NCBI RefSeq assembly: GCF_017811155.1
Contig: NZ_JACVCV010000013.1
Span: 62,001-126,000 of the forward strand
Source of the DNA: Lunatimonas salinarum
GTDB lineage: Bacteria; Bacteroidota; Bacteroidia; Cytophagales; Cyclobacteriaceae
Reading direction: 5' to 3'
Length of the DNA: 64,000 nt
The notes under the pieces are model-generated. The model worked only from the letters and a program-made list of their open reading frames with translations. It searched no databases and was not told the origin of the DNA. Made by a program: the position numbers and the translations under genes. This document shows positions 22,195 to 52,737 of this stretch, piece by piece (the stretch's first letter is position 1; each line of letters starts with the position of its first letter).

Positions 22195-24222
22195 ATGAAA
22201 AATCTCTTCATCGCGTTGATTTTCGCTGCTGCCTTTGTTACAGCAGCCCATGGTCAGCAGGGATCTACCGTCATTTCTGAATCAGCAGCGCGTGAAATGA
22301 TGGAACAGCTGACAGCCAAGTTTGGAAATCACGAAGCCGCCCGAATAACCCGCGGGGTTAATCACTTGTGGTCTCTTTGGCTCGAATCTGACGGAGATCG
22401 AGCAGCCTTTGAAGCTTTTTGCTTAAAACAGTTTATTCCCAGCGGACAGGACCTGGACAGGGCCTTTGAAATTGCGGAGCAGCAATTCGAAGCGATCAAT
22501 GGGTACCGTAGGGAGCTTTCCCTGGCCCTGGACTACCCGATTACCACCATGACCCGCCCGGTCACCGAATTAGATCGGTTGTTCGGAGGCGCCTCCTTTC
22601 AGGTTGATTTTTTCAAGAACAAGCTGGCCCACCTGATCGCATTGAATTTTCCCTATTATACCCACGATGAAAAGGAGCGGCTGGGTCCCCAGTGGACTAG
22701 GAAGCAGTGGGCCATGGTCCGGTTGGGTGATCAGTTTGATTTCCGGGCAGACCCCGCGAAAGAACCCAAACCCATGAGCTTACCGGATGAGTTGCGCGAT
22801 TATACCTCTCTCTACATCCTCTCCATGGATCAGGTGCTGTCTCCCAGCATGGAGGTACTGTTTCCGCCTGGTACGCGGCTAAACAGCCACAACGGACTCA
22901 GGGACGAGATCAAGGGTCTTTATTCGAGAAAGGATCCCTTGGAAAGGCAGCGCACACTGCAGACGATTATCCTGCATATTATCCACCAAACGATACCGTC
23001 CTGCATGATTGGTGAGACACCCTTTTACTGGGAGCCTCAGGCGAATAAAGTGTACAAAAAGGAAGACGGACAATTTGTAGAAGTGGATTTTGCGCCGGAG
23101 AATGATACCCGTTACCAGGTCCTGCATCATAACATGGTTTCCAAAATGCGCCAGGATGTCAAGTATGCGGCCGGGTCAACTTATTTTTCCCGCACCTTTG
23201 ATAACGTTCAGCTAAGCGAAGCAAGGATTGTTTCCCTCCTGGAATCGGTGGTTGGAGCTCCGGAGATGAAGGGGGTTGCTTCGTTGATTGAGAAAAATTT
23301 GGGCAGAAAATTAGCGCCTTTCGATATCTGGTTTACCAACTTCAATGACAGTCCGGATCTTGACATGGATGAACTGGATCGGATGATACGGGAAAAATAC
23401 CCTACACCGATGGCTTTTCAGCAAGATATCCCGGCAATCCTTCAAAAAGTTGGCTTTCGAAGGTTTGAGGCTGATTTTATCGGTAGCCGCATCGTAGTGG
23501 ATCCCATCCCATCGGGAGGACATGCCAATGCTCCCCAAATGCGCGGCGCCAACGCACACCTGCGCACTCGGTTTGAAAAAAATGGACTCAACTACAAAGG
23601 CTACCGGGTGGCTATGCACGAGGTAGGACATAATATTCAGCAGATTGTCGGCACCTACATGACGGATTATTATTCGCTGAAGGGCATCCCCAGTAGCCCC
23701 TATACCGAGGCCATGGCGGATTTACTAGCCTATCGTAACCTGCTGGCGTTGGGGGTCAGTCCCGATTACACGGTGAAAGAAAGACAGGAGAATGCACTGG
23801 CGGCTTTTTGGTTTGTGTGTGAAATCGGCGCAGTGGCCTTGCACGAAATCAAGGTATGGAATTGGCTGTATGCGCATCCCGATGCCACCATGGAAGAGCT
23901 GAAAGAGGCCACCATTACCATTGCCAAGGATCTTTGGAACGAATATTTTGCGGAGATCTTCGGCGTTCGCGACGTGCCGATCTTGGCGATTTACAATCAT
24001 TTTATCTCCGGTGCCTTGTATCTGCACAGCTACCCCCTAGGAAATATCGTCATGATGCAGCTCGAAGAGCAGTTTGAAGGGCGGGATTTTGCGGAGGAGC
24101 TGATTAGGGTGTGTAAAATTGGGAAATTGACACCCGATCAATGGATGGTAGCGGCAACCGGAAGGCCCTTGAGTGCCGAGGCACTCCTGAAAGCGACCCG
24201 GGAGGCATTGAAGGCAAGGTAA
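22195..24222 (+). CDS. Secreted HExxH metallopeptidase-like protein
   Basis: A 675-residue protein from the ATG at 22195, which starts a clear signal peptide (MKNLFIALIFAAAFVTAAHGQ); an earlier in-frame ATG at 22063 would add 44 atypical residues. Residues 475-479 read HEVGH inside AMHEVGHNIQQIVGTYM, and Glu505 follows in PYTEAMADLLA, which gives the HExxH plus downstream glutamate of gluzincin zinc peptidases. The C-terminal part (LHSYPLGNIVMMQLEEQF) recalls the helical end of M3/M32-type peptidases, but I cannot name the family. It stands between the sulfatase-GH78 gene and an unknown secreted protein (30 nt apart) and is probably co-expressed with them. A role in trimming algal glycoproteins, or in maturing a PUL protein, is speculation. 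Confidence 0.7.
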   Translation: MKNLFIALIFAAAFVTAAHGQQGSTVISESAAREMMEQLTAKFGNHEAARITRGVNHLWSLWLESDGDRAAFEAFCLKQFIPSGQDLDRAFEIAEQQFEAINGYRRELSLALDYPITTMTRPVTELDRLFGGASFQVDFFKNKLAHLIALNFPYYTHDEKERLGPQWTRKQWAMVRLGDQFDFRADPAKEPKPMSLPDELRDYTSLYILSMDQVLSPSMEVLFPPGTRLNSHNGLRDEIKGLYSRKDPLERQRTLQTIILHIIHQTIPSCMIGETPFYWEPQANKVYKKEDGQFVEVDFAPENDTRYQVLHHNMVSKMRQDVKYAAGSTYFSRTFDNVQLSEARIVSLLESVVGAPEMKGVASLIEKNLGRKLAPFDIWFTNFNDSPDLDMDELDRMIREKYPTPMAFQQDIPAILQKVGFRRFEADFIGSRIVVDPIPSGGHANAPQMRGANAHLRTRFEKNGLNYKGYRVAMHEVGHNIQQIVGTYMTDYYSLKGIPSSPYTEAMADLLAYRNLLALGVSPDYTVKERQENALAAFWFVCEIGAVALHEIKVWNWLYAHPDATMEELKEATITIAKDLWNEYFAEIFGVRDVPILAIYNHFISGALYLHSYPLGNIVMMQLEEQFEGRDFAEELIRVCKIGKLTPDQWMVAATGRPLSAEALLKATREALKAR

Positions 24223-24252
24223 AATGGGAAACGGATTATAAAACACAAAAAG

Positions 24253-25905
24253 ATGAATCATTGTAAGGAAAGCATTTTTTTCATCCTAGGCTTGTTGGTT
24301 TTTCAGATCGGCCTGGTATCTGCACAACAAGCCACTCCGGAAGAGGCATTTCGTAACATCCATGTAGGTGGGTATTTAATAACCCAGCTAGAGGAGGCAG
24401 ACGAATCCTACAACGCGGGATACTCCATGTACATGGCTGCCTGGCCTTTGGTAAAGGATTATCCGGGGAGAAGTTTTCAGTCGGGCCTGTTCGGTACCTG
24501 GATGCATCCGCAACAGGATGGACCCTTGCCGATCGAACGGTTTTATACAAACATAGAAGGAGGACTTGGCTGGTGGCGGGATACGGAATATGCGACCGAA
24601 ACGCCTAAATTCATCATGGGCGGAGTGCAACTGAATTTTGCCGGATGGGCCAATGGACCCGGTGCAGGAAGAGGCAGGGACTGGGACGATCCAAAAGGTA
24701 AATACGGAGTGGCGCAGTTAAGTCCCTGGGTATTGTGGCCTCCGGACGGTCTGAATCTGAAGCAGGGTACCTCTGGTGAGCTGTTTGGCAGTGGCTATCT
24801 GCCTCTGCCGCTTATGGAGCCAAGAGCTACAACCGCGGGAACATCGGTTCCAACGGGTAATCAATGTTGGACCTTATTTCTTAACACCGGAAATTTCAAA
24901 GGTCCGGTGGCCTTTTTCACTCCCTATTTCTGGACGCAGGCGTCTGCCGAGGATCCGCGCCTAGCGGGTTTGTTTTTAGATCAGCGACCTTCTAAAGCCA
25001 ATAAGCCCTTTCAGATGGAAACGCAGCACATCTATTCCAAAGAAGCTACGGACTCCAAAGGTCAGACGTATGCCCGAACGGCTCCCACCCAGTACCCCGT
25101 GGGTCCTAATGGGAATTCGGATTTGTTACACCGCTTGATGGTCTATAAAAAGGCTGCACTCTGGGATGATGTGGAAGCCTGGTTCAAGGGTGGAAAAATG
25201 GCCGAAGGCAAAATAGACGAGGAAGAGGCAGCCATGCAGCGATTCAAAAAGAGTGTGAGGTCCAACTGGAGTTTTTTTGGGGAACATATTCCGAAGGAAA
25301 TGCGCGCTTTGCTGAATATCACCTCTTTTTTAGATCCTTCCGTCACCGACTCGGCTACCTTGAGAATCCGCTGGTCTGGGGAGCATGTCACCCGGCGAAA
25401 ACTGAGCTCTCGTTCTTTGGTGGTACTTCCAGAATACTATAAACTGGTAAAAAAGGATGTAGATGATAAGGGAGAATGGATCGCAGTGGCTCCTCAGGAG
25501 GTACCCGCTGAAACAGGACTTCATGCCGTTGATTTTCGAAGTACGGATAAACGAAATGCACTTCCCTACGTCACCCCGGAAGACCCGGAGAGTAGCTGGA
25601 AAAAGCCCGGGCCGGTGGCCGGACCCTTTAAGGCGAGATTGGGTGACGGCAGCACCGTCACCTATTATTGGTACCGTTTTGCCGATCAGCCTGCCTTACT
25701 TAATGCCGATCTGAGCACAGAGGAGCGGGAGGAAATGCAGCGCCGTGTGGAATTGCTTCATGCCCATTGGACCAAGGAGAGAGAATACCTGCCACCTCCC
25801 TTGTTTGGGGAATTGGCAGAGTTAGACCCTGCATTGATCGTACAGCCTCCGGCCGGATTTGAAGTAGGCTATGTCCCCATTGTTACCCAACAGGGATTGG
25901 AATGA
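24253..25905 (+). CDS. Secreted protein of unknown function
   Basis: A 550-residue protein with a signal peptide (hydrophobic core at residues 8-23, GLVSAQQ). I do not recognise a family. It is rich in tryptophan, proline and glycine, with segments such as GGLGWWRDTEYATET, GYLPLPLMEPRA and CWTLFLNTGNFKGPVAFFTPYFW, that look like a substrate-binding beta structure; there is no HExxH, CxPxR or other known catalytic signature. It starts 30 nt after the HExxH peptidase gene and ends 35 nt before a sulfatase gene, so it is probably translated from the same message. The company of sulfatases and lyases suggests a role in polysaccharide breakdown, either as a new enzyme or as a binding protein. Confidence 0.75.
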   Translation: MNHCKESIFFILGLLVFQIGLVSAQQATPEEAFRNIHVGGYLITQLEEADESYNAGYSMYMAAWPLVKDYPGRSFQSGLFGTWMHPQQDGPLPIERFYTNIEGGLGWWRDTEYATETPKFIMGGVQLNFAGWANGPGAGRGRDWDDPKGKYGVAQLSPWVLWPPDGLNLKQGTSGELFGSGYLPLPLMEPRATTAGTSVPTGNQCWTLFLNTGNFKGPVAFFTPYFWTQASAEDPRLAGLFLDQRPSKANKPFQMETQHIYSKEATDSKGQTYARTAPTQYPVGPNGNSDLLHRLMVYKKAALWDDVEAWFKGGKMAEGKIDEEEAAMQRFKKSVRSNWSFFGEHIPKEMRALLNITSFLDPSVTDSATLRIRWSGEHVTRRKLSSRSLVVLPEYYKLVKKDVDDKGEWIAVAPQEVPAETGLHAVDFRSTDKRNALPYVTPEDPESSWKKPGPVAGPFKARLGDGSTVTYYWYRFADQPALLNADLSTEEREEMQRRVELLHAHWTKEREYLPPPLFGELAELDPALIVQPPAGFEVGYVPIVTQQGLE

Positions 25906-25940
25906 GCATAACATAAGATTATAACAAACACGTAAGATTT

Positions 25941-27383
25941 ATGAAAGACTGTAGGTTCCTTTCGTTCCGCCTAGCAAGTTTACTATGCTGGCTTTTCTTG
26001 TTGGGGGCTTGCAGCCTACAAGAAAATAAAAAACCCAATGTGATTATCTTTTTCACCGATGACCAAGGTACCCTTGATGCGGGGTGTTATGGAGCCGATG
26101 ACCTGTTTACCCCGAATATAGACAGATTAGGCAGTACAGGAATACGTTTCACAAAGGCTTATTCCCATACGGTCTGCTGTCCCAGTAGGGCCGCTTTGCT
26201 TACAGGCAGGCATCCCCAACGGTCAGGGATAAGAGACTGGACCCAAAACAACCCACATGACCTAGAGAAAGGCAGAAATATGCCTCTTGATGAAGTTACC
26301 ATTGCCGAAGTATTGAAAGACAACGGATACAGAACCGCACTTTTCGGCAAATGGCATCTGGGAGCTTCGTTAGAAAATGGGCCACTTGAACAAGGGTTTG
26401 ACGCCTTTTTTGGACACAGAAGTGGCTTTATCGATAACTACGTTCATTATTTTTTGCATGGAAAGGGGTTCCATGACCTGTGGTTCGATAACAAAGAGGT
26501 TTTCCTAGCAGGTACCTATTTTCCCTCTTTGATGACTGAAAAGGCGGTTGATTTCATCGATGCGAGCAAAAACGATCCCTTTTTTCTATACATGGCTTTC
26601 AATTTGCCCCATTACCCAGAACAGCCCGATTCGGTTTTCGTTGCAAAAAATGCAGGTTTAGAAGAGCCCCGACGATCTTATGCGACGGTAGTTTCTACAG
26701 TTGACAATTTGATAGGGCAGGTTATAGATAAACTTGAAGCTCTTAACCTTAGGGAAGACACGCTCATTATATTCATGAGTGACAATGGACATTCCACAGA
26801 GGAGACCTTTATCCGAATAGACGAACATTCGAGTGGGTTGCCAAAGGGGACAAATTACTGTGCCAATGGTGGGGGAGGGTATACCGGAAAATGGAGAGGC
26901 GCAAAGGGAGGCTTTCTGGAAGGAGGAATCCGGGTACCCGCTATAATAAGTTATCCCGGTCGGTTTTCCAGAAACGAAACGAGGGACCAGACCATTTCAG
27001 TAATGGATTTTTTTCCAACTATATGCGAACTAGTGGGGGCTTCATTACCGGACAGACCAATCGATGGAAAAAGTCTGGTTCCGATTATTGAATCGAACGC
27101 ACCCTCGAAACATGAATTGCTGTTTTTTGAATGGCGAAACCAATGGGCCGTAACCGATGGAAAATGGAAACTCATACTAAATGGTCGCGATACCACCGGT
27201 GAATTTTCACCGCATCCACAAAAAGAAGAAAAAATGGAATCACCTTACTTGGCGAATTTGGAGGATGAACATCCCGAGGAAAAAAACTACGCAGTGGAAT
27301 ATCCGGAACTGGTGGATCGTATGAAGGCGCTCCTCGATGAATGGGAGGAGGATGTGAATAGTCATTTACCTTCTGATGAGTAG
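25941..27383 (+). CDS. S1 family sulfatase, lipoprotein
   Basis: A 480-residue sulfatase with a lipoprotein signal (WLFLLGAC, Cys24), so probably anchored in a membrane and acting in the periplasm or at the surface. NVIIFFTDDQ at residues 33-42 supplies metal ligands, and C79-C80-P-S-R83 is the formylglycine motif, with Cys79 the residue to be oxidised. MSDNGHSTE carries the later metal ligands. It hydrolyses sulfate esters, most likely on sugar; which position cannot be told from sequence. It follows the unknown secreted protein by 35 nt. Activity needs a formylglycine-generating enzyme, which is not encoded in this window. Confidence 0.9.
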   Translation: MKDCRFLSFRLASLLCWLFLLGACSLQENKKPNVIIFFTDDQGTLDAGCYGADDLFTPNIDRLGSTGIRFTKAYSHTVCCPSRAALLTGRHPQRSGIRDWTQNNPHDLEKGRNMPLDEVTIAEVLKDNGYRTALFGKWHLGASLENGPLEQGFDAFFGHRSGFIDNYVHYFLHGKGFHDLWFDNKEVFLAGTYFPSLMTEKAVDFIDASKNDPFFLYMAFNLPHYPEQPDSVFVAKNAGLEEPRRSYATVVSTVDNLIGQVIDKLEALNLREDTLIIFMSDNGHSTEETFIRIDEHSSGLPKGTNYCANGGGGYTGKWRGAKGGFLEGGIRVPAIISYPGRFSRNETRDQTISVMDFFPTICELVGASLPDRPIDGKSLVPIIESNAPSKHELLFFEWRNQWAVTDGKWKLILNGRDTTGEFSPHPQKEEKMESPYLANLEDEHPEEKNYAVEYPELVDRMKALLDEWEEDVNSHLPSDE

Positions 27384-27485
27384 AAAAGTGTTTTCCAAGC
27401 AGAAGGCATGTCCGTTTAAAGTTGCTACATAATTGGGTAACTACCTCTTTAAAAAAACTGTTTTGAATTACCTTATTGAACTGAT

Positions 27486-28889
27486 ATGAAGAATGCTGGC
27501 ATAACTCTGTTTGTTTGCTTTTCCCTATGGTTGGTTTCTTGTTCTGAAAAGGATGCCAGCACTTTTCCGCCGAAAAGGCCCAACATTTTATTCCTCCTGG
27601 CCGATGACCTAGGGTATGGGGAGCTGGGAAGCTACGGACAACGCATCATTCAAACCCCCGTATTGGATGAACTGGCCAAGCAGGGTGTCCGCTTTACCAA
27701 TTTTTATGCGGGAAGTCCGCTCTGTGCACCCTCCCGAGCCGTTATTTTGACCGGAAAGCATTCAGCTACCGCCACCATTCGTGGTAACACAGGCTATCAC
27801 CCCGACCGCGACGTATTTGCGCGCGTCGCATTGAGGCCTGATGAGATCACATTGGGGGAGATGCTCCATGGTGCCGGTTATCAAACTGCATTTATCGGAA
27901 AATGGCACTTGGACGATTGCCATGTGGAAACCTGGGCCCATCACCGGGGTTTTGATTTTGCCGTACAGGAGCAGTTCGGGACTTGTCCGGGAGGCATTGT
28001 TTACGATGAAAGAATGCATTGGATCAACGGTAAACAGGATTCCATCTACTATGATCTAACGGCCTACGATTGCATCGATGAATTTCGAACGAATATCGCA
28101 CTCGACTATCTGGACAGTGCCGATTTGGATTCACCTCTCTTTCTATTTATGTCCTACCGGGCTCCCCATGCGCACGAGAAAACCGTCCGAAATAAAGAGC
28201 TCTATGCGGATCGGGGCTGGCCGGAAATTGAGCGCACGCATGCCGCAAAGATTACCCTGCTTGATCAGCAGGTAGGTCGCCTTTTGGAAAAGCTTAAGGA
28301 AAAGGGGATCTTGGAAAATACCTTGATTGTGTTTACCAGCGACAACGGTGCCCATGGAGAACTGGGCCATGACCATACCTTTTTTCAGAGTACCGGACCA
28401 TTGCGCGGGAAGAAGCGAGATACGTATGAAGGGGGAATACGTGTGCCGGCCCTGGCTTACTGGGCCGGAAATACCAAGTCCGGAACAGTGGATGATACGC
28501 CCCTTAGTGGCCAGGATTTTATGCCTACCCTTGCCGAGGTCGCGGGTATCGAGGTGCCGGATCAGAGCAATGGGATTTCCTTTGCACCTGTATTTTATGG
28601 GGATGATCTAAAGCCCCGTGAACACCTTGTCTGGGAGTTGAATTTGTACGGCAAGCCGGCAGCCAATTTCCGACAGTCCGTCCGTATCGGAAACATGAAG
28701 GGCGTGAGGTATGGAGTTGACGCCAACATGGAGCTGTACGACCTGACCAAGGATGTTTCGGAAAGTTCCGATATTTCGGGTCAGCATCCGGAATTGGTGC
28801 GGAAGATGGAGGAAGTTGTCCAAAAAGAGCACGTGCCCAATCCACACTTCCCATATGGCGGTTACGGAGCGATATTGGGGCCAGAGTAA
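27486..28889 (+). CDS. S1 family sulfatase, lipoprotein
   Basis: A 467-residue sulfatase with lipoprotein signal (FSLWLVSC, Cys19). RPNILFLLADDLGYGELG (31-48) opens the alkaline-phosphatase-like fold, C80-A-P-S-R84 is the formylglycine motif, and FTSDNGAHGELGHDH gives the metal-binding end. The overall look is of the N-acetylgalactosamine-6-sulfatase/arylsulfatase A side of the family, but subfamily and sulfate position are not assigned. A 102-nt gap separates it from the preceding sulfatase, so it may have its own promoter; none was clear. It ends a run of five same-strand genes (18449-28889) rich in sulfatases. Confidence 0.9.
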   Translation: MKNAGITLFVCFSLWLVSCSEKDASTFPPKRPNILFLLADDLGYGELGSYGQRIIQTPVLDELAKQGVRFTNFYAGSPLCAPSRAVILTGKHSATATIRGNTGYHPDRDVFARVALRPDEITLGEMLHGAGYQTAFIGKWHLDDCHVETWAHHRGFDFAVQEQFGTCPGGIVYDERMHWINGKQDSIYYDLTAYDCIDEFRTNIALDYLDSADLDSPLFLFMSYRAPHAHEKTVRNKELYADRGWPEIERTHAAKITLLDQQVGRLLEKLKEKGILENTLIVFTSDNGAHGELGHDHTFFQSTGPLRGKKRDTYEGGIRVPALAYWAGNTKSGTVDDTPLSGQDFMPTLAEVAGIEVPDQSNGISFAPVFYGDDLKPREHLVWELNLYGKPAANFRQSVRIGNMKGVRYGVDANMELYDLTKDVSESSDISGQHPELVRKMEEVVQKEHVPNPHFPYGGYGAILGPE

Positions 28890-29126
28890 GTCAATTAGTT
28901 AGCCGGTGGTTTCGATCCAGGTGCGGGGCCGCCTCGCCTTTGGGTTGGATTTTTGAATAAGGTCCTAGGTTTTGACCGGGCATTACCCAACCCGCGGATA
29001 TGCGGCGTTTTCCCATTCCTTTTTTCGTACTACCGATCCTATCGGCGTTTCACCACTTTGGTCATTTTGTTTTTTGATTCAGGTAGATTATTCCTTAATT
29101 TTTAACCTATATACCCAATAGACCAG

Positions 29127-32100
29127 ATGCCGAACCGACCTTACTATAAGCCCCCGTATTTTTTGTTCTTTCTGTTCATTTTAGGCCTTTTCGTATTCTC
29201 CTGTTCAGATCCATCACGGCCCATACCCTTTGATCCTCCCTCTCATGGGCGTATTGTGATGGTGGGAAATACCTTTGCCGAACAGCTACAGACGACCAAC
29301 TATTTCGAAACCTTGCTGTACCAGAGCTTTCCCGATAGAAACCTGGTAGTCCGCAATTTGGGCTGGAGCGGAGACGAGGTAGACTTGCAGCCTAGGCCCT
29401 TGGATTTTGGCTCCTTGGAGGATAATTTGAGCTACCATCGGCCGGATTATATTTTCGCCTTTTTTGGCATGAACGAGGCTTTTCAGGGAGCACAAGGCTT
29501 GCCTTTGTTTAAGGAAAAGCTTAGGGCCTATCTGCAACGAATTCTAATTGCACCCTACGAGGGCAAGTCACCTCCTCAGGTCGTACTGTTTTCACCGATC
29601 TATCATGAAGAAATAGGTGGTTTTCTTCCTAATCCGGAAGACCACAATCGGCAACTGAAGGCCTATACAGATGCCATTGCGGAGGTGGCCAAACAACTGA
29701 ATATTCCTTTTGTAGATCTTTATGAGGGCAGCAAAAGGCTCATGAGTCGCTCTGATGAGCACCTGACTTACAACGGTATTCATTTGACGGACGAGGGCTA
29801 TCGCAGGGTTAGCGAGTTTATGGCAAAGTCATTGGGGTTTAAGCAGGCTACGTGGGGGCAGACCGCCGAAACCCTCAGGGAACTGATAGCGATTAAAAAC
29901 CGGCAGTTTTTCTATCGATTCCGGTCCCAAAATGGCGAATACATCTCGGGAAGCAGGAAGCATTGGAAGGGAGGTCAAACGCTTCCCGCTGAACTGGCAC
30001 AATTGGACTCCATACTGCTTCGATTGGATTCCCTGGTTTGGAAGGGTGCTTCCGGAAATGGGCCTTTGGCCCTGCAGCAGGCCAGGGAAATCTTTCGATC
30101 TTTCGATGGGGAGCGCGCTACGGCAAAGAACTACGCCCCATCCACTGATCAATTTATCCTACAAGAGGGGTATCGGATTGAGCTCTTTGCATCGGAGCAG
30201 GATTTCCCTATTGCCAATCCCGTTTCGATTAGCTTTGATCCGAAGGGAAGGCTTTGGGTGGCTTCCATGCCTTCCTATCCCCATGTTTTGCCCGGACAAG
30301 TACCAAATGATAAGCTGGTCATCTTAGAAGATACGGACGGAGATGGCGTGGCGGACCACCATACGGTATTCGCGGACAGCTTATACCTGCCCTTGGGATT
30401 TGAGCTGGGGGATGGCGGCGTGTACCTGACCCAAGCACCGGATTTGGTGTTTTTGAAAGATACGGATGGGGACGGTAAGGCCGATGAACGCCGCAATCTG
30501 TTACATGGTTTTGGGACAGAAGATGCGCACCATTCCATTTCTGCCTATACCTGGGGTCCAGACGGTGCCTTGTATATGCACGAGGGTACCTTTCTCCATT
30601 CACAAGTAGAAACCCCCTATGGCCCTGTCCGTGGCGCCTATGGCAATACGTGGAGGTACGAACCGCGTACGATGAAGTTGGAGCCCTACGTCTCGTATCC
30701 CTATGCGAATCCTTGGGGACATGCCTTTTTGCGCAACGGAACCCACCTCATCGGGGATGTGTCCACGGGAATGAATTACCTGGCCACTCCTCTGACGGTA
30801 TCCACGGAGTATCCCAAAAAGCACGTAGGCATGAAGGATTTCCTGACGAGTACGTATAAGCCCAAAACCTGCGGCATGGAGATCATCTCCAGCCGGAATT
30901 TTCCGGATGAAGCCCAAGGAAACATTCTGTTCAACACGTTTGTGGGTTTCCAAGGTATACGCCAACACCGGATAATCCCTCAGGGCAGTGGGATCGTGGC
31001 AGAGGAGCTTCAGCCACTTTTGCAATCCACCGATCTGAATTTCCGCCCTGTCGATCTGAAGTTTGGCCCCGATGGCGCTCTGTACGTAGTGGACTGGTTC
31101 AACCCCATTATTCAGCACGGCGAGCAGGGTTTCCGCGATTCCTTAAGAGACCGGGCCCATGGAAGAATCTGGAAAATAACCTACGAAGCGAAGCCCTTGA
31201 ATCTGTACCTTGACCTAACGGCATTATCGGTGGGGGAATTGCTCGATCAGCTTAAGGTGTACGAAGACAGGGTCCGGTATCGGGTGCGTATGCAGCTAAG
31301 GGAATACCCGGCAAATGAAGTTTTACCGGTAGTGGAAACTTGGATCAATGGATTGAATCGGGAAACTGCCTCCTTCGAACAGGATTTATTGGAAGGCTTA
31401 TGGGTGTACCAGCAGTTTCACCGGCCCAATAGGGAGCTATTGGATAAACTATTGGCTGCGAAGGACCCGGATATTCGGGCTGCGGCTACACGGGTTTTGT
31501 TTTATTGGAGGGAATCTATTCCAGAAACGGAAACGCTTTTAGCTGAGAAAATTTCAGATCCCTCCGCCAAAGTACGGCTGGAAGCCATCGCCGCACTCAG
31601 TCATTTCAGGTCAAAGCGATCGGTGGAGGCATTGCTTAAGGCCGCGGATTGGCCGATGGATGACTACATCGATTATGCATTGAAGGAGGCCTTCAAGCCA
31701 TTGAGGCCCATTTGGATGGAGATGTTTCAAGAAAACCCGGAATTTCTGAAAGGAGATTCTGTCAAAACTGCGCTGATCTTGGGGCCACTTGATTCTCCCG
31801 AAAAATTGCCGCTACCTGGATTTTTGAAAACGGATCCCCATTGGGCAGCCTATACCTGGCCTCCTTTGACATCCGAAGAGTTTGCGGCTATTTCCCATGC
31901 ACCTGCGGTCATGCAGTTTTTGAAATACAGCGATAATGCTTTTGTTGCCGGGGAGCGGAAAGGTGCATCAGGCTTGGCGGAAGGGGATGTCGATGCTCGT
32001 CGCGGATTGAAAGGCACTGCAGAAGTGATAAAGGTGGTGTTAACGACGCTTCCTGGAGAGATGGTTTTTGATAAAAAGCAGTTTACCGTTCCTGCGGGTG

Positions 32101-32411
32101 TGCCGGTGGAAATCCATTTTAGTAATCCGGATGACATGCCCCACAATCTATTGATTTTAAGTCCCAATAGTCTGGAGGCGGTGGGCCGGATGGCTGACGA
32201 TATGGCGAAACTCCCGGATGGATACGACAAGCATTTCATTCCTGAATCGGACAGGGTACTGGCCGCCACTCCTTTGGTAACCTCCGGAGAGCGGTTTGTG
32301 CTTCGGTTCACGGCCCCCAGTGAACCGGGAGAGTATCCATTTACCTGCACCTTTCCGGGCCATTGGCGAATCATGAATGGGGTGATGCGGGTGGAAAGAC
32401 CATCTTCTTGA
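29127..32411 (+). CDS. SGNH-like, dehydrogenase-type propeller, HEAT and cupredoxin fusion lipoprotein
   Basis: A 1,094-residue lipoprotein (FVFSC, Cys26). Residues about 42-250 form an SGNH/GDSL-like domain, though block I reads VGNTFAE with no nucleophilic serine; block V keeps NGIHLT. Residues about 341-690 are the N-terminal propeller of the membrane-bound dehydrogenase family abundant in Planctomycetes (YRIELFASE, FDPKGRLWVASMPSYPH, DTDGDGVAD, GPDGALYVVDWFNP). Then follow HEAT-like repeats (about 700-890). The last about 125 residues are a type 1 copper domain with ligands His1006, Cys1074, His1079 and Met1083 (PHNLL, TCTFPGHWRIM). Related proteins usually end in a cytochrome c; here no CxxCH exists, and copper probably takes over electron transfer. 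It may oxidise a sugar in the periplasm and pass electrons on. It lies between sulfatase and GH105 genes. Confidence 0.82.
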   Translation: MPNRPYYKPPYFLFFLFILGLFVFSCSDPSRPIPFDPPSHGRIVMVGNTFAEQLQTTNYFETLLYQSFPDRNLVVRNLGWSGDEVDLQPRPLDFGSLEDNLSYHRPDYIFAFFGMNEAFQGAQGLPLFKEKLRAYLQRILIAPYEGKSPPQVVLFSPIYHEEIGGFLPNPEDHNRQLKAYTDAIAEVAKQLNIPFVDLYEGSKRLMSRSDEHLTYNGIHLTDEGYRRVSEFMAKSLGFKQATWGQTAETLRELIAIKNRQFFYRFRSQNGEYISGSRKHWKGGQTLPAELAQLDSILLRLDSLVWKGASGNGPLALQQAREIFRSFDGERATAKNYAPSTDQFILQEGYRIELFASEQDFPIANPVSISFDPKGRLWVASMPSYPHVLPGQVPNDKLVILEDTDGDGVADHHTVFADSLYLPLGFELGDGGVYLTQAPDLVFLKDTDGDGKADERRNLLHGFGTEDAHHSISAYTWGPDGALYMHEGTFLHSQVETPYGPVRGAYGNTWRYEPRTMKLEPYVSYPYANPWGHAFLRNGTHLIGDVSTGMNYLATPLTVSTEYPKKHVGMKDFLTSTYKPKTCGMEIISSRNFPDEAQGNILFNTFVGFQGIRQHRIIPQGSGIVAEELQPLLQSTDLNFRPVDLKFGPDGALYVVDWFNPIIQHGEQGFRDSLRDRAHGRIWKITYEAKPLNLYLDLTALSVGELLDQLKVYEDRVRYRVRMQLREYPANEVLPVVETWINGLNRETASFEQDLLEGLWVYQQFHRPNRELLDKLLAAKDPDIRAAATRVLFYWRESIPETETLLAEKISDPSAKVRLEAIAALSHFRSKRSVEALLKAADWPMDDYIDYALKEAFKPLRPIWMEMFQENPEFLKGDSVKTALILGPLDSPEKLPLPGFLKTDPHWAAYTWPPLTSEEFAAISHAPAVMQFLKYSDNAFVAGERKGASGLAEGDVDARRGLKGTAEVIKVVLTTLPGEMVFDKKQFTVPAGVPVEIHFSNPDDMPHNLLILSPNSLEAVGRMADDMAKLPDGYDKHFIPESDRVLAATPLVTSGERFVLRFTAPSEPGEYPFTCTFPGHWRIMNGVMRVERPSS

Positions 32412-32496
32412 AAGGGCTTCTAAGAAGTGTTCTGTCAAGTATCCCTTCGTAAGATGTTTTTGCTCTGATTTGAACTTGTGATAAAATTAAGCTTTG

Positions 32497-34029
32497 ATGG
32501 ATAGGCGTGACTTTCTAAAAGCATTTTCGGCAACAAGTGCAGCGATTCCGTTGGTTTCTGCCGATGCATTTTCAGCGTATTCGAGTCATTCAAAGAATAC
32601 CAGGTTGGTATATCATCCGGCCACACAGATCACTGCAATGGATATAGAGGTACCCGAAGGCAAGCGACTTCCCTTTGGTTGGACGGCCTTTGCAGTGAAG
32701 CCAGGTACCGAAGATCCATTGGTCCACCTTTCCTTTGATCTTGAAGGCGGTGTAGCCTATCCTTCGCTTAGGCTGAGGTTGTGCAGCGTCATGGATATCC
32801 GCGAAGAAATGCTCATTGAAGTATACTTAGGAAGTACTTCCGAATTGATTGGCACTTTTGATATCCGGTATCCGATTGTGATACAGGTATTTGAACTGGC
32901 AATTCCTCCGGAATTTCATAAGCGAGTAGGGCGAGAGGGACTATCTCTCAAAATGGTAAAAGGCGGTACTCCAGCCTGGTTTTTAAGCGGCGGGACAGCC
33001 AATGCAACCAATCAGCTGTTAACGGCCCACTTGCTTTCCCATTCCACCGACAAGCCAACTTTGAATAATTTCTTTCCCAGTTTTTATTCCATCAATTCCA
33101 TTCAGCAGTTTGGCTGGATGGAGGGCTGCGTGTTGGACGGCTTGTATGATATGTACAAAAGCACAGCTAATCCATTGGTAAAGCGGGTCATAGATCAGCA
33201 CCTTGCGATGTTTTTCGACGAGCATCAAAGACTTAGCTATGAGGGACCTCGCAGCCAAATTTTGTATGATCAGATTTATGGCATTGAATGCCCCTTACCG
33301 ATAACAGTTATTGCCAAACTATACCCCGATCATCCGGCAGTAGACCTATTGATTTCATACTGCTTGGATGTTCTTAGGGAGGAAAGCAACCTGACCACCG
33401 AGGGCTGCTATACCTTAGCCTATCCAATGGCAGAAGCTGCCGTCGCTAGAAACCATCAGGAATTGGCAGAATTGGCCATTCATCACCTTTTGATCCGAAG
33501 TGATCGACTGGTGAGAAATGGGCACATTTACCAGCGGGGAACGAGTGACAGTATGGTTTCTTTCGAAAGTTGGGCCAGAGGGGTGGCCTGGTATATGCAG
33601 GGCTTGGTTAGGAGTTGGATGGCATTACATAATCACTCGGAGTTTCGTGCCCTGCCAGGTCTTGAAACCATCAAACGTTTGTACCTGTCTTCAGTCGAAT
33701 GGGCTCTGCAATACCAGCAGAAGAATGGACTTTGGCATTGTTATTTGGCAAAGCCTGAGACTGGCTATGATACTTCCGGTTCCTTGGGCATTGCCGCGGC
33801 GATCGCCTTTGGCCAAAAGAACGGGATACTTTCCGCTGATGTGACGAAGCAGCTAGAAAAGACAAAGAATGCAGTGAAACCTTATTTGACCCCGGATGGA
33901 ATGGTTTCAGGCACGGCACAGTCCAATAAGGGTGGGGAAGAGCTTCAGAAAAGCGGTTACCGGGTCATCTCTTCCTATGCTTCGGGACTCTATGCCCAGC
34001 TGATTGCATCTTTGCCCGATCCGAGGTGA
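32497..34029 (+). CDS. GH105 unsaturated rhamnogalacturonyl/uronyl hydrolase
   Basis: A 510-residue protein of the YteR/GH105 family, (alpha/alpha)6 barrel, that removes the 4,5-unsaturated uronic acid left at the non-reducing end by polysaccharide lyases; several GH105 enzymes act on ulvan oligosaccharides. The conserved W359-ARGVAWYMQGLV stretch and WMEGCVLDGLYDMYKST are the family's core motifs. The start at 32497 (ATG) gives a twin-arginine signal, MDRRDFLKAFSATSAAIPL, better than the TTG at 32494; export in a folded state is therefore likely. Residues about 40-170 form an extra N-terminal beta domain. It is the logical partner of the lyases at 483-4091. The gap of 85 nt to the dehydrogenase-like gene leaves co-transcription open. 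Confidence 0.85.
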   Translation: MDRRDFLKAFSATSAAIPLVSADAFSAYSSHSKNTRLVYHPATQITAMDIEVPEGKRLPFGWTAFAVKPGTEDPLVHLSFDLEGGVAYPSLRLRLCSVMDIREEMLIEVYLGSTSELIGTFDIRYPIVIQVFELAIPPEFHKRVGREGLSLKMVKGGTPAWFLSGGTANATNQLLTAHLLSHSTDKPTLNNFFPSFYSINSIQQFGWMEGCVLDGLYDMYKSTANPLVKRVIDQHLAMFFDEHQRLSYEGPRSQILYDQIYGIECPLPITVIAKLYPDHPAVDLLISYCLDVLREESNLTTEGCYTLAYPMAEAAVARNHQELAELAIHHLLIRSDRLVRNGHIYQRGTSDSMVSFESWARGVAWYMQGLVRSWMALHNHSEFRALPGLETIKRLYLSSVEWALQYQQKNGLWHCYLAKPETGYDTSGSLGIAAAIAFGQKNGILSADVTKQLEKTKNAVKPYLTPDGMVSGTAQSNKGGEELQKSGYRVISSYASGLYAQLIASLPDPR

Positions 34030-34279
34030 AAAAGCAATGACCACACCTCGGTAAAGGCTGGGTTTTTTGATTGGGGGTTGGCTTTAGACCGATGGAATTG
34101 CGCGACGGGGTAAAATAGTATATTTTTTGGCTAACATGATGCAACCCTTCTCGTTCGAATCTCTGTACTTTTAGCTAGGTAAATCAAAGAAGATGGTGTA
34201 AAAACGACATTTAATACGTGTTTTGATTGATTCTAGTCAAAAACAATTCCATCTTTTGCTACACATTGAATGAAAGATC

Positions 34280-35701
34280 ATGCAACTACTAGGAGTACGA
34301 TTGGTTGGGTTATTGATGCTTTTTGTTATTTCGGCCTGCCAAAAGGAACAAAAGCCTCCCAATATCATTTTTATAGTGACCGACCAGCAAAGCGAAAGCA
34401 TGATGAGCTCTTCGGGGAATACCTATATCCAAACTCCGGCTATGGATTATATCGCCCACAATGGCATTCGGTTTACCCGTGCCTATGTGACGAATCCGGT
34501 TTGTTCCCCCTCTCGGGTAAGCATGCTGACGGGGAGGTTTCCGGGCTATTTTTCAGACAAGAACGGCCAACAGGTCCGAAATAACGGGACGTCTGTGAAC
34601 ATTACAGATATTGACCAAGAGGTTTTGGATACCACTTTGCCTGCGTACCTGAAGCAGGCGGGTTATGAGTTGGTTTTCGGAGGTAAGCAGCATTTTCCTG
34701 CACCCCTGCATCCCGAATCACTCGGTTTCCAGGTCCTCACAGAAGATGGAAGAGAAGAGTTGGCCGCTCGGGCGGCCGAATTTATCCAGGGTAATCGTTC
34801 AAAGCCCTATTTTATGATGGTTTCTCTCATCAACCCACACGATATATGCTACATGGCCATCCGGGATTTTGCAGATTCGGTGTCTTTACGACGTTTGCAG
34901 CGCAATGCAGCACCGGCTTTGGAAGCCTTGGACAGGGCCATGGAACTGCCCGATGGTGTGGATAGGGATACTTTTTTTGCCCATTATTGCCCTCCATTGC
35001 CACCCAACTTTGAAATTCAGGAGGACGAGGCAAAAGCGATAAGCGTATTTTTGGATAGGGATCCCCGGTCGTTTCGCCGTGGGGCGAGGGAGGAGTATAC
35101 CGAGGAACAGTGGCGTATGCACCGGTGGGCCTATGCGCGTCTGACGGAGATGGCTGATGCGCAGGTGCAGGTGATTTTAGATGCCTTAAAAGAGAGTGGA
35201 AAGGAAGAAAATACCCTGGTGATTTTTTCCAGCGATCATGGGGACAACGATGGTTCCCATAAGCTGGAACACAAGAATGTACTGTACGAAGAATCCGTCA
35301 AAGTTCCCTTCGCAGCAATGTGGAAAGGGAAGATTGCACCCGGCCAGGTAGATGAGCAGCACCTGATTTCCTTGGGTTTGGATTTGCTGCCTACAGTGGC
35401 TGAATATGCGGGGGTAGAAGCGGTTGCAGATCCCCGAGGGATGAGTTTGAAGCCCCTATTTGAGGGGAAAGACCCGACGTGGCGGAAGACCTTGGGAATT
35501 GAAGGAGAGCTCAGTAGGGCCGTGTTGCACGCGGACGGGCTTAAGTATGTCCGTTACGATATGGCGGGATTTGAAGAGCGTCTGATGGATTTAGAGACAG
35601 ATCCCTACGAAACCACCCATTTTACCAACGAACCTGCCTATAGCGATCGACTATCGGCAATGAGACAGATTTTTGAAACCGAATGGTTTGAAGGGTTTTA
35701 G
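34280..35701 (+). CDS. S1 family sulfatase, lipoprotein
   Basis: A 473-residue sulfatase with lipoprotein signal (LFVISAC, Cys20). PNIIFIVTDQQ (27-37) uses DQQ rather than DDQ/DDL at the metal site, a common variant; C75-S-P-S-R79 is the formylglycine motif; FSSDHGDNDGSHKLEHKN provides the distal metal ligands. The DHGD form groups it with choline-sulfatase/iduronate-2-sulfatase-like enzymes. Substrate position is not assigned. A 250-nt gap without a recognisable gene precedes it, and 66 nt follow to the next sulfatase. Confidence 0.9.
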   Translation: MQLLGVRLVGLLMLFVISACQKEQKPPNIIFIVTDQQSESMMSSSGNTYIQTPAMDYIAHNGIRFTRAYVTNPVCSPSRVSMLTGRFPGYFSDKNGQQVRNNGTSVNITDIDQEVLDTTLPAYLKQAGYELVFGGKQHFPAPLHPESLGFQVLTEDGREELAARAAEFIQGNRSKPYFMMVSLINPHDICYMAIRDFADSVSLRRLQRNAAPALEALDRAMELPDGVDRDTFFAHYCPPLPPNFEIQEDEAKAISVFLDRDPRSFRRGAREEYTEEQWRMHRWAYARLTEMADAQVQVILDALKESGKEENTLVIFSSDHGDNDGSHKLEHKNVLYEESVKVPFAAMWKGKIAPGQVDEQHLISLGLDLLPTVAEYAGVEAVADPRGMSLKPLFEGKDPTWRKTLGIEGELSRAVLHADGLKYVRYDMAGFEERLMDLETDPYETTHFTNEPAYSDRLSAMRQIFETEWFEGF

Positions 35702-35767
35702 GGGAATATAATGATTGAAACGGTTCAAGAACTTAGTTCAGTGTAAGCTTTCAGTTACTCAGTAAAT

Positions 35768-37432
35768 ATGATGTATACCAGGTTGGTTTTCTTTCTTCTC
35801 GTATTGTCGCCTTTTTCGGTCTTTTTGTCGCCTTTTTCGGTCTTTGGCCGGCAGAGACCCAATATCCTACTGATCATGGCGGATGACATGGGGTACTCCG
35901 ATCTAGGGAGTTTCGGTAGTGAGATCAATACCCCCAATCTGGACAGGCTGGCGCAGGAGGGTATTAAATTCACCCAATTTTACAATGCGGCCCGCTGCTG
36001 CCCTACGAGGGCATCGTTGCTTACAGGTTTGTATCCGCATCAAGCAGGAATGGGAGATATGACGAATGACCTGGGTTTACCCGGCTACCGAGGAGATTTA
36101 AACGCACAGTGTGTCACGCTTGGGGAATCCCTGAAATCGTCTGGTTATGAAACCTTTGTGTCGGGAAAATGGCATGTGACCAAGCACGTGGACACTTGGC
36201 ATACCTGGCTTTCAGAAGATCAGCGTATTCATACTTCGAAGCACAATTGGCCGCTGCAACGGGGGTTTGACCGTTTTTTTGGAACCATCCATGGGGCGGG
36301 CAGCTATTATAATCCGTCCACACTTACCTTGAATAATACGCCGGTCGATGCTCCGGAGGATTTTTATTATACCGATGCGATCAGTGACTACGCAGTTTCC
36401 GTTATTAGGGAACAGGCAGAGGCAGGAAATAGGAAGCCTTTCTTTGGCTACATTTCCTACACAGCTCCCCATTGGCCGCTTCACGCCCTGCCTGAAGATA
36501 TTGAAAAGTACAAAGGTAGGTACGATGGTGGTTGGGATCGGATTCGTGAAGAGCGCATCGCGAAAATGAAGCAGCTGGGCTTAATCCATCCGGATTGGAA
36601 CATGGAAGGAAGAGACCCGGAAATCCCAACCTGGGACGAAGCGGCAGATAAGGCTTGGTGGGCTGCCTGTATGGAGGTGTATGCGGCCATGGTGGATCGG
36701 ATGGATCAGGGCATTGGGAAGGTCATTCGGGCGTTGGAAGAGACCAATCAGCTGGAAAATACGTTGATCCTCTTTTTACAGGACAATGGCGGTTGCCACG
36801 AGGTACTAACCGATCGATGGCCCCGTTCGTTGCATTTTCCGGATACCCAACGGGATGGGTCCCCCTTGCTGCGTGGCAACGATGTAACAGTTTTTCCGGG
36901 ACCGGAGAATACCTACATGAGCTATTCGGCCGAATGGGCCAGCGTGAGCAATACGCCGTTCAGGCTGTATAAACACTACATTCACGAAGGGGGGATTTCT
37001 ACACCACTCATTGCCTTTTGGCCTGCGGGTATTAAAGAGGCATCGAGGGTTTCCGATCATCTTGGACATATTGTGGATATCATGCCGACGCTACTGGAAG
37101 TGGCCGGCGGGGTTTATCCTACCGAATATAAGGGTGAGACAATCACTCCGATGGAGGGGCACAGTTTAGTACCTGTTTTTAAGAATCAAACCTTCCAGCG
37201 AATGCCCATTGGATGGGAGCACGAGGGAAACAGAGGTTTTCGGGACGGCAAGTGGAAATTGGTTGAGCGCAGAGGTCCAAGCTTTGCGTGGGAGCTTTAC
37301 GATATGGAAACCGATCGCACGGAGCAGCATAATTTGGCAGATGCATATCCCGAGGTCCTTCAGGCCATGATCCATCAATACCAAGCTTGGGCCGATAGGG
37401 TAGGGGTAGTTGAGTGGCCGGTTAGGAGATAG
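35768..37432 (+). CDS. S1 family arylsulfatase (AtsA-like)
   Basis: A 554-residue sulfatase, the longest single-domain one here. RPNILLIMADDMGYSDLG, C77-C78-P-T-R81 (Cys77 becomes formylglycine) and TGLYPHQAGMGDM resemble the Pseudomonas AtsA type (S1_4 group). LFLQDNGGCHEVL gives the distal metal ligands. The signal peptide contains an in-frame 21-nt tandem duplication that doubles LSPFSVF (see 35806-35847). Two adjacent ATG codons (35768, 35771) are both possible starts. A TauE/SafE-like permease follows 75 nt downstream and may deal with the sulfur anions these sulfatases release. Confidence 0.9.
   Translation: MMYTRLVFFLLVLSPFSVFLSPFSVFGRQRPNILLIMADDMGYSDLGSFGSEINTPNLDRLAQEGIKFTQFYNAARCCPTRASLLTGLYPHQAGMGDMTNDLGLPGYRGDLNAQCVTLGESLKSSGYETFVSGKWHVTKHVDTWHTWLSEDQRIHTSKHNWPLQRGFDRFFGTIHGAGSYYNPSTLTLNNTPVDAPEDFYYTDAISDYAVSVIREQAEAGNRKPFFGYISYTAPHWPLHALPEDIEKYKGRYDGGWDRIREERIAKMKQLGLIHPDWNMEGRDPEIPTWDEAADKAWWAACMEVYAAMVDRMDQGIGKVIRALEETNQLENTLILFLQDNGGCHEVLTDRWPRSLHFPDTQRDGSPLLRGNDVTVFPGPENTYMSYSAEWASVSNTPFRLYKHYIHEGGISTPLIAFWPAGIKEASRVSDHLGHIVDIMPTLLEVAGGVYPTEYKGETITPMEGHSLVPVFKNQTFQRMPIGWEHEGNRGFRDGKWKLVERRGPSFAWELYDMETDRTEQHNLADAYPEVLQAMIHQYQAWADRVGVVEWPVRR
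35806..35847 (+). repeat. 21-nt tandem duplication in a signal peptide
   Basis: Two copies of gtcgcctttttcggtctttt(t) sit head to tail at 35806-35826 and 35827-35847; the first 19 bases are identical. In frame, they encode LSPFSVF twice and lengthen the hydrophobic core of the sulfatase signal peptide by seven residues. Confidence 0.8.
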
Positions 37433-37507
37433 GTATGATTGGGGGTGTAAAGCTATTCAAATATGAGGATTTAATTTGTTAGTATGAGTTTTACCAAAGG
37501 ATAAAAG

Positions 37508-38389
37508 ATGAGTATTATTCTAAAGATAATTTTGGCCTTCATGACCGGTTCGTTTGGGTTCTACTACTTTTCCGATGTCTTTAGACACCGGAAGATGTTT
37601 TCCGGTAAGCCCTGGTCTGGGCTTTTGGGAACTGGATTTATCACCAATTTTTTTGACACCCTTGGGATCGGGAGTTTTGCGCAGCAGACAGCCATCTTTA
37701 AGTTTTTTAAATTGGTCGATGACCGGCTAATTCCAGGAACCATGAACGCAGGCAATACCATTCCTACGGTAACCCAAGCGTTTATATTTATGACCGTGGT
37801 CGAAGTAGATCCAATTACCCTGATCACCATGTCCACGGCTGCACCCTTGGGAGCCATTTTGGGAGCCGGTATGGTGTCCAAGATGTCGCGACGTAAAATT
37901 CAGATCGGATTAGGTTCCGGCTTATTGGCCGTTGCTCTGATCATGATAGCCGGGTTTTTGGATTGGATGCCGGTCGGAGGGGAAGCCATCGGGCTAACGG
38001 GGTGGAAATTGGCGCTTATTGTGGGGATGAGTTTTGTTTTTGGGGCTTTGCAAACCATCGGAGTCGGGTTTTATGCGCCCTGTATGGCGATGGTTTATGC
38101 GCTCGGCATGCATCCACTTACAGCCTTCCCCATCATGATGACCGCAACGGGCATGTTAATGGCAGCAGGCGGAGCAAGATTTGTCAAGCAAGGAGCCTAT
38201 GATAGGAAAGTTGCCATTTCGCTTACGATCGCCGGTATCTTTGGTGTTTTTCTAGCTGCATTTGTGGTCAAATCCCTGCCCCTGTTAATTCTCAAATGGG
38301 TGGTGCTGTGCATTGTGTTGTATACATCGGGATGGATGTTTCTGTCTGCTGCCCAGAGAAAACATGATTCTAAAGTAGCTGTTGCATAA
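37508..38389 (+). CDS. TauE/SafE family permease
   Basis: A 293-residue, very hydrophobic inner-membrane protein with about eight transmembrane segments in two homologous halves, typical of the TauE/SafE (DUF81) family that moves sulfite, sulfoacetate and related anions. GTGFITNFFDTLGIGSFA near residues 41-58 is the characteristic first-half motif and VGMSFVFGALQTIGVGFYAP the second-half one. It is the only inner-membrane transporter among the polysaccharide genes and directly follows a sulfatase gene, so export of sulfite/sulfate produced from sulfated glycan is a reasonable inference; a different small anion is not excluded. Confidence 0.85.
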   Translation: MSIILKIILAFMTGSFGFYYFSDVFRHRKMFSGKPWSGLLGTGFITNFFDTLGIGSFAQQTAIFKFFKLVDDRLIPGTMNAGNTIPTVTQAFIFMTVVEVDPITLITMSTAAPLGAILGAGMVSKMSRRKIQIGLGSGLLAVALIMIAGFLDWMPVGGEAIGLTGWKLALIVGMSFVFGALQTIGVGFYAPCMAMVYALGMHPLTAFPIMMTATGMLMAAGGARFVKQGAYDRKVAISLTIAGIFGVFLAAFVVKSLPLLILKWVVLCIVLYTSGWMFLSAAQRKHDSKVAVA

Positions 38390-38496
38390 GTAGAAGTCTC
38401 ATGGGATTGCATTATTAATTTAACAATTACGTTTATACTAAAGGTACCAAATTCAAGCAAGATATATTCAACAGGTTGGTGGCTTGGCAGATCTAT

Positions 38497-38527
38497 TTGA
38501 AAAAGTATTGAATTTGTTGTACTTTTA
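38497..38527 (+). promoter_or_regulatory. Possible promoter for the small lipoprotein gene
   Basis: TTG at 38497-38499 and TACTTTTA at 38520-38527 with 20 bases between them match the Bacteroidota -33/-7 pattern except for the last base of the -7 box. It lies about 70 bases before the ATG at 38599. Confidence 0.3.
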
Positions 38528-38598
38528 TGGAAAAAGCACCTTATTTAATGCAGTAGAAAGGCAAGAAGATCATCTTTCAAAAGTAGCCTCCCGGAATT

Positions 38599-39216
38599 AT
38601 GGAAAACAGGTTGTGTTTTTTGCTTTTTATAGCTGTTACGGCCTGTGTTTCCCCAGGAGATCCAATTTACCCTGAGGAACCCGCTATTCCTGCTCCTCCT
38701 ACTTCCCCTTCTCCTCCAGTCCAAGGAAGCGGAAGAAACATTTGTGATTTTGACCTATCGGAAAAGGAAGGTGAATACGAACTAGCCGGAAAATGGGAAT
38801 TTGCCGGCTTTCAAGACATTCATTCTGGTCGACTGGATAACCTTACCTGTTTGGCGCGTATTGCTGATTTTGCTTTAACTGGAGAGGATTATGACAATTT
38901 GTATCAAGTCATCTTGAATCTTTCCCAAGATCGCAAGCAGTGTAATGAATCTGTCTATTTTGACGCCATTAGTTTTAGTTACCATTTGCAGGGTTGTTAC
39001 CAAGTTGGTGAGGAAGGCATCACTTTTGTCATACCCGAAAGCGGGATAAGGTCAATTCCTAGTCTTGCCAGTACTACCTATCCCGTGCTGAGTTTTGAAA
39101 TTAGGTTTTTAGAAGGCTTGCGTTCAGCGAAAAATTTCCAAATGGAAAAAAACAAGCTGTTCCTGTATGGTGAAAAGGAAGAAGAACGAATGGTTTTTGT
39201 TTCCCTAGATGAATAG
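38599..39216 (+). CDS. Hypothetical lipoprotein
   Basis: A 205-residue lipoprotein (MENRLCFLLFIAVTAC, Cys16) with a proline-rich linker (PEEPAIPAPPTSPSPP) after the anchor, then a globular part with several cysteines (CDFDLSEKEGEYELAGKWEF, TCLARIAD, QCNESVYFDAISFSYHLQGC). KWEFAGFQDI and the size suggest a small lipocalin-like or META-like beta domain, as found in many Bacteroidota lipoproteins, but I cannot assign a family. It stands alone between the permease gene and a stretch of gene relics and need not belong to the polysaccharide system. Confidence 0.7.
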   Translation: MENRLCFLLFIAVTACVSPGDPIYPEEPAIPAPPTSPSPPVQGSGRNICDFDLSEKEGEYELAGKWEFAGFQDIHSGRLDNLTCLARIADFALTGEDYDNLYQVILNLSQDRKQCNESVYFDAISFSYHLQGCYQVGEEGITFVIPESGIRSIPSLASTTYPVLSFEIRFLEGLRSAKNFQMEKNKLFLYGEKEEERMVFVSLDE

Positions 39217-39336
39217 GTTACAAAGAATTATTTTTTGGCGGTAAGTAATTCCAGTTTAATCACTGGTTGACAGTACAACTTCCAGCTAGAATTTTTAATG
39301 GACGTTCGACTCCATAAATAGGTCATGGGTCAGACA

Positions 39337-52704: not shown

Positions 52705-52737
52705 GTAATTGTTTAATCCCCAAATAAATACGTGACT

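Follow-up and report, generated by a model that had tools for sequence, protein, structure and literature searches.

A putative lipoprotein of Lunatimonas salinarum that joins a DUF7133 propeller, homologous to quinoprotein sugar dehydrogenases, to a predicted blue-copper domain

The stretch of DNA described here, hereafter the window, covers 64,000 nucleotides of the genome of Lunatimonas salinarum (assembly GCF_017811155.1, contig NZ_JACVCV010000013.1, positions 62,001 to 126,000). It holds a polysaccharide-utilisation region, which would serve the digestion of sulfated sugars of the seaweed type, and within this region an open reading frame (ORF) of 1094 codons, at 29127-32411 on the plus strand, encodes a putative lipoprotein in which an SGNH domain, a beta-propeller of the DUF7133/TIGR02604 family, HEAT-like repeats and a cupredoxin domain follow one another (Table 1). 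An initial annotation, made from the letters alone, had described a dehydrogenase-type propeller with a copper domain instead of cytochrome c. The ORF, its coordinates, the four proposed copper ligands His1006, Cys1074, His1079 and Met1083 and the absence of a CxxCH motif were found exactly as claimed, and Pfam, NCBIfam and AlphaFold2 models searched with Foldseek agree on the four-domain architecture. Pfam recognizes Lipase_GDSL_2 (PF13472) at residues 57-227 (E 4.4e-16), DUF7133 (PF23500) at 339-687 (E 1.3e-72; 245.7 bits against a cut-off of 27), HEAT_2 (PF13646) at 770-853 (E 1.6e-9) and Copper-bind at 972-1090 (E 1.1e-11). The NCBIfam model TIGR02604, named 'PVC-type heme-binding CxxCH protein', matches with 232.3 bits (cut-off 122.2), and the NCBIfam azurin model matches below its own cut-off. 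Cysteines occur only at positions 26, 582 and 1074, and no CxxCH haem motif is present anywhere in the 1094 residues. In the AlphaFold2 model of the whole protein the mean pLDDT is 83.8, with values mostly of 86-97 in the cupredoxin region and a disordered linker before it.

Orthologues were found in a Lunatimonas metagenome-assembled genome (MAG; L031, 88% identity), a Cytophagales MAG (L032, 79%) and Lunatibacter salilacus (L033, 72%) by a scan of genome contigs with short patterns, which detects close relatives only. The linker retains 37-43% identity in L032 and L033, versus 73-75% for the cupredoxin. The gene is under purifying selection, with dN/dS of about 0.03 in the propeller, the slowest-evolving segment of the protein, and 0.12-0.25 in the cupredoxin. 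The architecture recurs in other genomes. A unique fusion or an assembly chimera was considered and is ruled out by the orthologues in other genomes and by the same module swap elsewhere. In Lunatimonas lonarensis AK24 (L034:10000-10773), the SGNH N-terminus appears fused to the last cupredoxin codons and followed by an early stop; the internal loss of about 2.5 kb may be genuine or may stem from the assembly.

By its ligand set and its predicted fold, the C-terminal domain is a type 1 (blue) copper cupredoxin. All four predicted ligands are present in each of the 33 cupredoxin domains compared. The nearest sequences are Roseiflexus auracyanin, auracyanin A and azurin, with whose ligands those of the window protein align. 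The top Foldseek matches are the auracyanins 6kol, 2aan and 1qhq, with target-normalised TM scores of 0.85, 0.90 and 0.78, respectively. The model superposes on auracyanin A (2aan) at TM 0.90 and 1.8 Å, and on this match the predicted ligands fall on those of auracyanin, as clustering into a copper site would require. Auracyanin and azurin share both the ligands and the fold with this domain, but they are small free-standing carriers, whereas the window cupredoxin forms part of a large protein, a putative lipoprotein enzyme. Deep support in the cupredoxin tree is too weak to trace the origin of the window copy.

The propeller is homologous to the quinoprotein sugar dehydrogenases (GSDH family, PF07995), in line with the dehydrogenase-type propeller first proposed. 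When its profile was aligned by hhalign with that of GSDH proteins from related genomes, the match had 99.8% probability and E 8.8e-30 over 286 columns, an E-value for a single comparison; five unrelated window proteins used as controls gave E 0.05-0.6. This alignment was used because a phmmer alignment of the paralogue L036 to solved sugar dehydrogenases was uninformative. Modeled alone, the propeller reaches pLDDT 90, and its top Foldseek matches are a putative glucose dehydrogenase of Thermus (2ism), an archaeal-type PQQ sugar dehydrogenase (3a9g) and the soluble glucose dehydrogenase (sGDH) of Acinetobacter (1cq1), with many other propellers close behind. His469 aligns with the second His of the GSDH motif 'GHHYGSR', Asn528 with the Asn of 'RNP' and Arg640 with the first Arg of 'RVR'. 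In sGDH structures, the His position is the catalytic base and the Asn and Arg positions are contacts of pyrroloquinoline quinone (PQQ). Polar residues such as Y384, D466, H468, H469, N528, R640, D656, H664, R674 and H678 are invariant in 48 SGNH-type members, which argues for an active pocket in the propeller. The residues conserved across the family (the Asp loops, D466, H468, N528, D656, W657, H664 and R674) are present. With a conservation threshold of 80%, the single deviation is K683, an Arg in the family, so the propeller retains nearly all of the positions that its family conserves.

Most relatives carry a haem domain where the window protein has its predicted copper domain. The PVC-type heme-binding CxxCH proteins, including Lac161_ORF7, share its propeller-HEAT order, the conserved propeller residues and a C-terminal one-electron redox domain; the window protein differs in having a cupredoxin, no CxxCH and an N-terminal SGNH domain. 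The host genome contains 34 TIGR02604 matches across more than 15 genes, nearly all of which terminate in a CxxCH domain. One paralogue (L045) is an SGNH-propeller-HEAT-cytochrome c protein, another (L042) combines ThuA, propeller, HEAT, LamG and cupredoxin, and in a third (L040) a ThuA-propeller gene lacks the redox domain, and a cupredoxin gene lies 10 bp downstream of it. Among 88 full-length DUF7133 proteins of Bacteroidota, collected by family-wide and phylum-wide searches and classed as cytochrome-bearing when a CxxCH lies downstream of the propeller, 58 carry cytochrome c, 27 a cupredoxin, three neither and none both. Because sampling followed similarity to the query and its paralogues, the proportions are not population estimates, and the informative part is the absence of any protein with both modules. 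One pair, L113 with cupredoxin and L114 with cytochrome c, is 68% identical over 901 residues, the redox module being the sole difference.

The propeller tree divides into SGNH-type and ThuA-type groups, both with cupredoxin members, and requires separate changes on the two backgrounds, so that cupredoxin stands in place of cytochrome c at several spots, as the initial annotation had it for one protein. Three clades of the SGNH group are distinct: that of the window protein, that of L105-L108, L113 and L115, and the large cytochrome clade. The label SGNH-cupredoxin requires three changes even when the count is confined to well-supported branches; the tree was built quickly and has long branches, and the labelling can inflate counts by up to one change, so exact counts are soft. 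The search for the architecture across genomes found the propeller-cupredoxin combination in many Bacteroidota, mainly as ThuA-propeller-cupredoxin. In a class-wide sample of 149 genomes, at E 1e-60, this ThuA form appeared only in the host's own family, where it looks to be centred by this sequence search; genomes of Planctomycetota and Verrucomicrobiota lay outside the search for relatives. Together, these comparisons support the view that cupredoxin and cytochrome c are an interchangeable electron-outlet module. Because of the exchange, a role of this domain as the outlet for electrons is likely. That blue copper has repeatedly taken the place of haem on the same propeller points strongly, if indirectly, to the propeller being a redox enzyme, a proposition that can now be tested. 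Two further arrangements were observed: redox-less propeller genes with LamG (L040:4673-8417 and L082) lie directly upstream of a stand-alone cupredoxin, a split form of the fusion, and a 1626-residue protein (L115:512-5389) adds a C-terminal ThuA domain to SGNH, DUF7133, HEAT and cupredoxin, bringing both types of N-terminal partner into one chain.

The SGNH fold is supported by Foldseek matches to Axe2, 3rjt and others. Its nucleophilic serine had been reported missing, and it is indeed replaced by Thr49 (GNT); the Asp of the Asp-x-x-His block is also changed, to Asn (NGIH), with the His retained. Decay of the triad extends over the subfamily (about 50 relatives compared). The block I Ser is Asn in most cytochrome-bearing relatives, the Asp is Asn in members that bear the His, and the His is Gln in nearly the whole cytochrome clade. 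The cupredoxin-bearing L105-L108 and L113 retain Ser and His and lack the Asp. In L043, the SGNH domain has a gene of its own, which lies upstream of one for propeller and cytochrome. An active esterase is unlikely with a triad that is degenerate throughout the subfamily, and we read the domain as a retained, non-catalytic fold that is probably carbohydrate-binding.

The computations establish domain content, ligand conservation, fold, mutual exclusion and exchange of the two redox modules, GSDH homology and purifying selection; redox catalysis and its substrate, cofactor and acceptor we infer, as follows. We favour, with some reserve, the reading that the protein is an envelope sugar dehydrogenase of the DUF7133 family with a copper outlet in place of haem. 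The propeller would bind a glycan-derived sugar and oxidise one of its hydroxyls, with His469 as the likely base and a PQQ-like two-electron cofactor bound in the propeller; the degenerate SGNH domain would serve as the non-catalytic, probably carbohydrate-binding part. The tethered type 1 copper domain, in place of the usual cytochrome c, would carry the electrons away singly and pass them to the respiratory chain of the envelope. The host genome encodes two cytochrome oxidase subunit I genes, one of which adjoins genes for multihaem, large and membrane subunits in an ActA-F-like, alternative complex III order (assigned by eye). In Roseiflexus, auracyanin takes electrons from ActE (PMC8552683). 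The window cupredoxin might feed such an alternative-complex-III-like/oxidase chain. Speculatively, the product would be a keto-sugar, as in the pathway of Agrobacterium, which proceeds by C3-oxidation, beta-elimination and re-reduction and relies on a glycoside dehydrogenase, a TIM-barrel sugar-isomerase-like eliminase, a hydratase and a Gfo oxidoreductase (PMC10628242). The Agrobacterium GlycDH-AtOGE operon has gene types (Gfo/Idh/MocA, sugar-isomerase-like) similar to those beside some propeller relatives; here the oxidising enzyme would be the propeller and not GlycDH. A broader proposal can be made only tentatively: these sugar dehydrogenases would form a natural family in which the built-in electron outlet, cytochrome c or blue copper, can be exchanged, and whose copper form oxidises glycan fragments in a polysaccharide-utilisation region, possibly with a cofactor other than standard PQQ. 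If true, such a family would open an oxidative route of glycan breakdown alongside hydrolysis. The DUF7133 family is large, with the many copies of the host genome as an example, and has nearly no biochemistry. Expression should be less demanding for the copper form than for the haem form; the copper form also has its own optical reporter, and it could settle whether Bacteroidota regularly oxidise sugars in the envelope when they use glycans.

Several observations weigh against a dehydrogenase. The putative cofactor site is half retained: His469, Asn528 and Arg640 are kept, and two Arg positions that contact PQQ in GSDH are occupied by Ala527 and Val642, so that the catalytic geometry may persist with an altered cofactor site. 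The GSDH quinoproteins (E. coli YliI, Acinetobacter sGDH, fungal AA12) share with the window protein the propeller fold, detectable homology, a His at the position of their catalytic base, and an Asn and an Arg of the cofactor site, whereas the window protein has additional SGNH, HEAT and copper domains and gave no match to the PF07995 profile at 1e-3; the paralogue L036 does match it. PqqC gave no match in the host genome, a weak negative since the control was silent in all genomes; PQQ might also be taken up from outside. Relatives on other backgrounds often adjoin Gfo/Idh/MocA and xylose-isomerase-like genes (L133, L138, L142, L145-L151), and neither type occurs among the window genes scanned; these families are common and no chance expectation is available, so this neighbourhood is a lead only. 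A search of the open-licence literature on DUF7133/TIGR02604 yielded one experimental paper and one genome survey, and no paper on a copper form or on cupredoxin-dehydrogenase fusions. The sole characterised relative in these papers, Lac161_ORF7 (AGW45552; TIGR02604-HEAT-cytochrome c), was produced in E. coli, purified on Co-NTA and reported as a beta-galactosidase from its release of glucose from lactose, with a Km of 1.8 mM (PMC5342196). The survey noted 18 homologues in Paludisphaera and listed those of Isosphaeraceae as putative glycoside hydrolases (PMC5352709). The propeller could accordingly be, or act as, a glycoside hydrolase, with the redox domain serving regulation or some other purpose. 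A hydrolase has no need for a conserved electron carrier, yet nearly all members have a cytochrome or a cupredoxin and never both, and the propeller fold is closest to sugar dehydrogenases. The signal of Lac161_ORF7 could, in our view, stem from carry-over of E. coli beta-galactosidase or from oxidation followed by elimination, and we regard the hydrolase as improbable.

The protein could also be a periplasmic oxidoreductase that acts on a substrate unrelated to the glycans of the cluster, for example as a general scavenger of aldoses or polyols, its place among sulfatases being incidental. The initial annotation had set the gene in a sulfated-polysaccharide region. This holds in the window, where sulfatases and SusC/SusD flank the gene as in a sulfated-polysaccharide utilisation locus, in L031, which preserves the order sulfatase - gene - GH88 - sulfatase, and in L032, whose copy is flanked by sulfatases. 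It fails in Lunatibacter (L033), where no sulfatase or GH88 is nearby and DUF4185/DUF5005, FecR and SusC/SusD genes are found instead, SusC/SusD about 3.5 kb downstream. The sulfatase context is real within the genus and absent in Lunatibacter. The paralogues, in turn, occupy many different contexts, and a substrate from outside the cluster is given a low probability. The cupredoxin, finally, might be a copper-binding or structural module, or donate electrons to a partner enzyme instead of draining the propeller. Cupredoxins are able to pass electrons in either direction, and the literature search turned up no biochemical work on a member with copper. In close relatives, nonetheless, a cytochrome c module stands at the position of this domain, and the propeller has conserved polar residues and evolves more slowly than any other part; this possibility appears very unlikely.

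Table 1. Positions in the window of the gene, its domains and key residues, and the surrounding region.
Feature	Position	Strand	Basis
Polysaccharide-utilisation region: seven sulfatases (one rhamnosidase-fused), GH88/105-type hydrolase, GH78-type rhamnosidase, SusC/SusD	18449..54243	+	profile searches
Complete gene (1094 aa) with SGNH, DUF7133 propeller, HEAT-like repeats, linker and cupredoxin	29127..32411	+	ORF, Pfam, NCBIfam; orthologues 72-88% identity
Signal peptide with lipobox, residues 1-26, predicted lipid-modified Cys26 (LFVFS/C)	29127..29204	+	read from sequence
SGNH-fold domain, residues 40-240, catalytically degenerate	29244..29846	+	PF13472; fold matches Axe2, 3rjt
Beta-propeller DUF7133/TIGR02604, residues 339-687, GSDH homologue	30141..31187	+	Pfam, NCBIfam, hhalign, Foldseek
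First Asp-rich DTDGDG loop (D402, D406, D410), likely Ca2+ site	30330..30356	+	conservation 100%, 99%, 99%; Ca2+ inferred
Second Asp-rich DTDGDG loop (D445, D449, D453), likely Ca2+ site	30459..30485	+	conservation 95-98%; Ca2+ inferred
His468-His469; His469 on GSDH catalytic base	30528..30533	+	48/48 SGNH-type members; aligned with GHHYGSR of L156
Asn528, the Asn of the GSDH R-N-P motif; preceding Arg replaced by Ala527	30708..30710	+	profile alignment
Arg640, first Arg of the GSDH R-x-R motif; second replaced by Val642	31044..31046	+	48/48 SGNH-type members; profile alignment
Helical HEAT-like repeats, residues 700-905	31224..31841	+	PF13646; helices in model
Disordered, fast-evolving linker, residues 906-965	31842..32021	+	pLDDT < 50 over 937-964; low identity
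Predicted type 1 copper (auracyanin/azurin-like) cupredoxin, residues 966-1092	32022..32402	+	Pfam, sequence and fold matches
Predicted copper ligand His1006	32142..32144	+	kept 33/33; aligned with auracyanin His
Predicted copper ligand Cys1074	32346..32348	+	kept 33/33
Predicted copper ligand His1079	32361..32363	+	kept 33/33
Predicted copper ligand Met1083	32373..32375	+	kept 33/33

The sulfatase genes of the region start at 18449 (the rhamnosidase-fused one), 25941, 27486, 34280, 35768, 42634 and 49687. The first is a single ORF (18449-21949) in which sulfatase and alpha-L-rhamnosidase are fused (matches to the Pfam models Sulfatase, SGSH_C, Ig_Rha78A_N and Bac_rhamnosid6H), and it points to a sulfated rhamnose polymer. 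It is followed by two ORFs of 719 and 550 residues (22063-24222 and 24253-25905) that match no Pfam or NCBIfam model and are also adjacent in L031; they are possible new polysaccharide enzymes. A TauE/SafE sulfite-exporter-like gene lies amid the sulfatases at 37508-38389. The sulfatase cluster also includes a DUF3863/DUF3864 protein (51130-52704), for which a structure is known.

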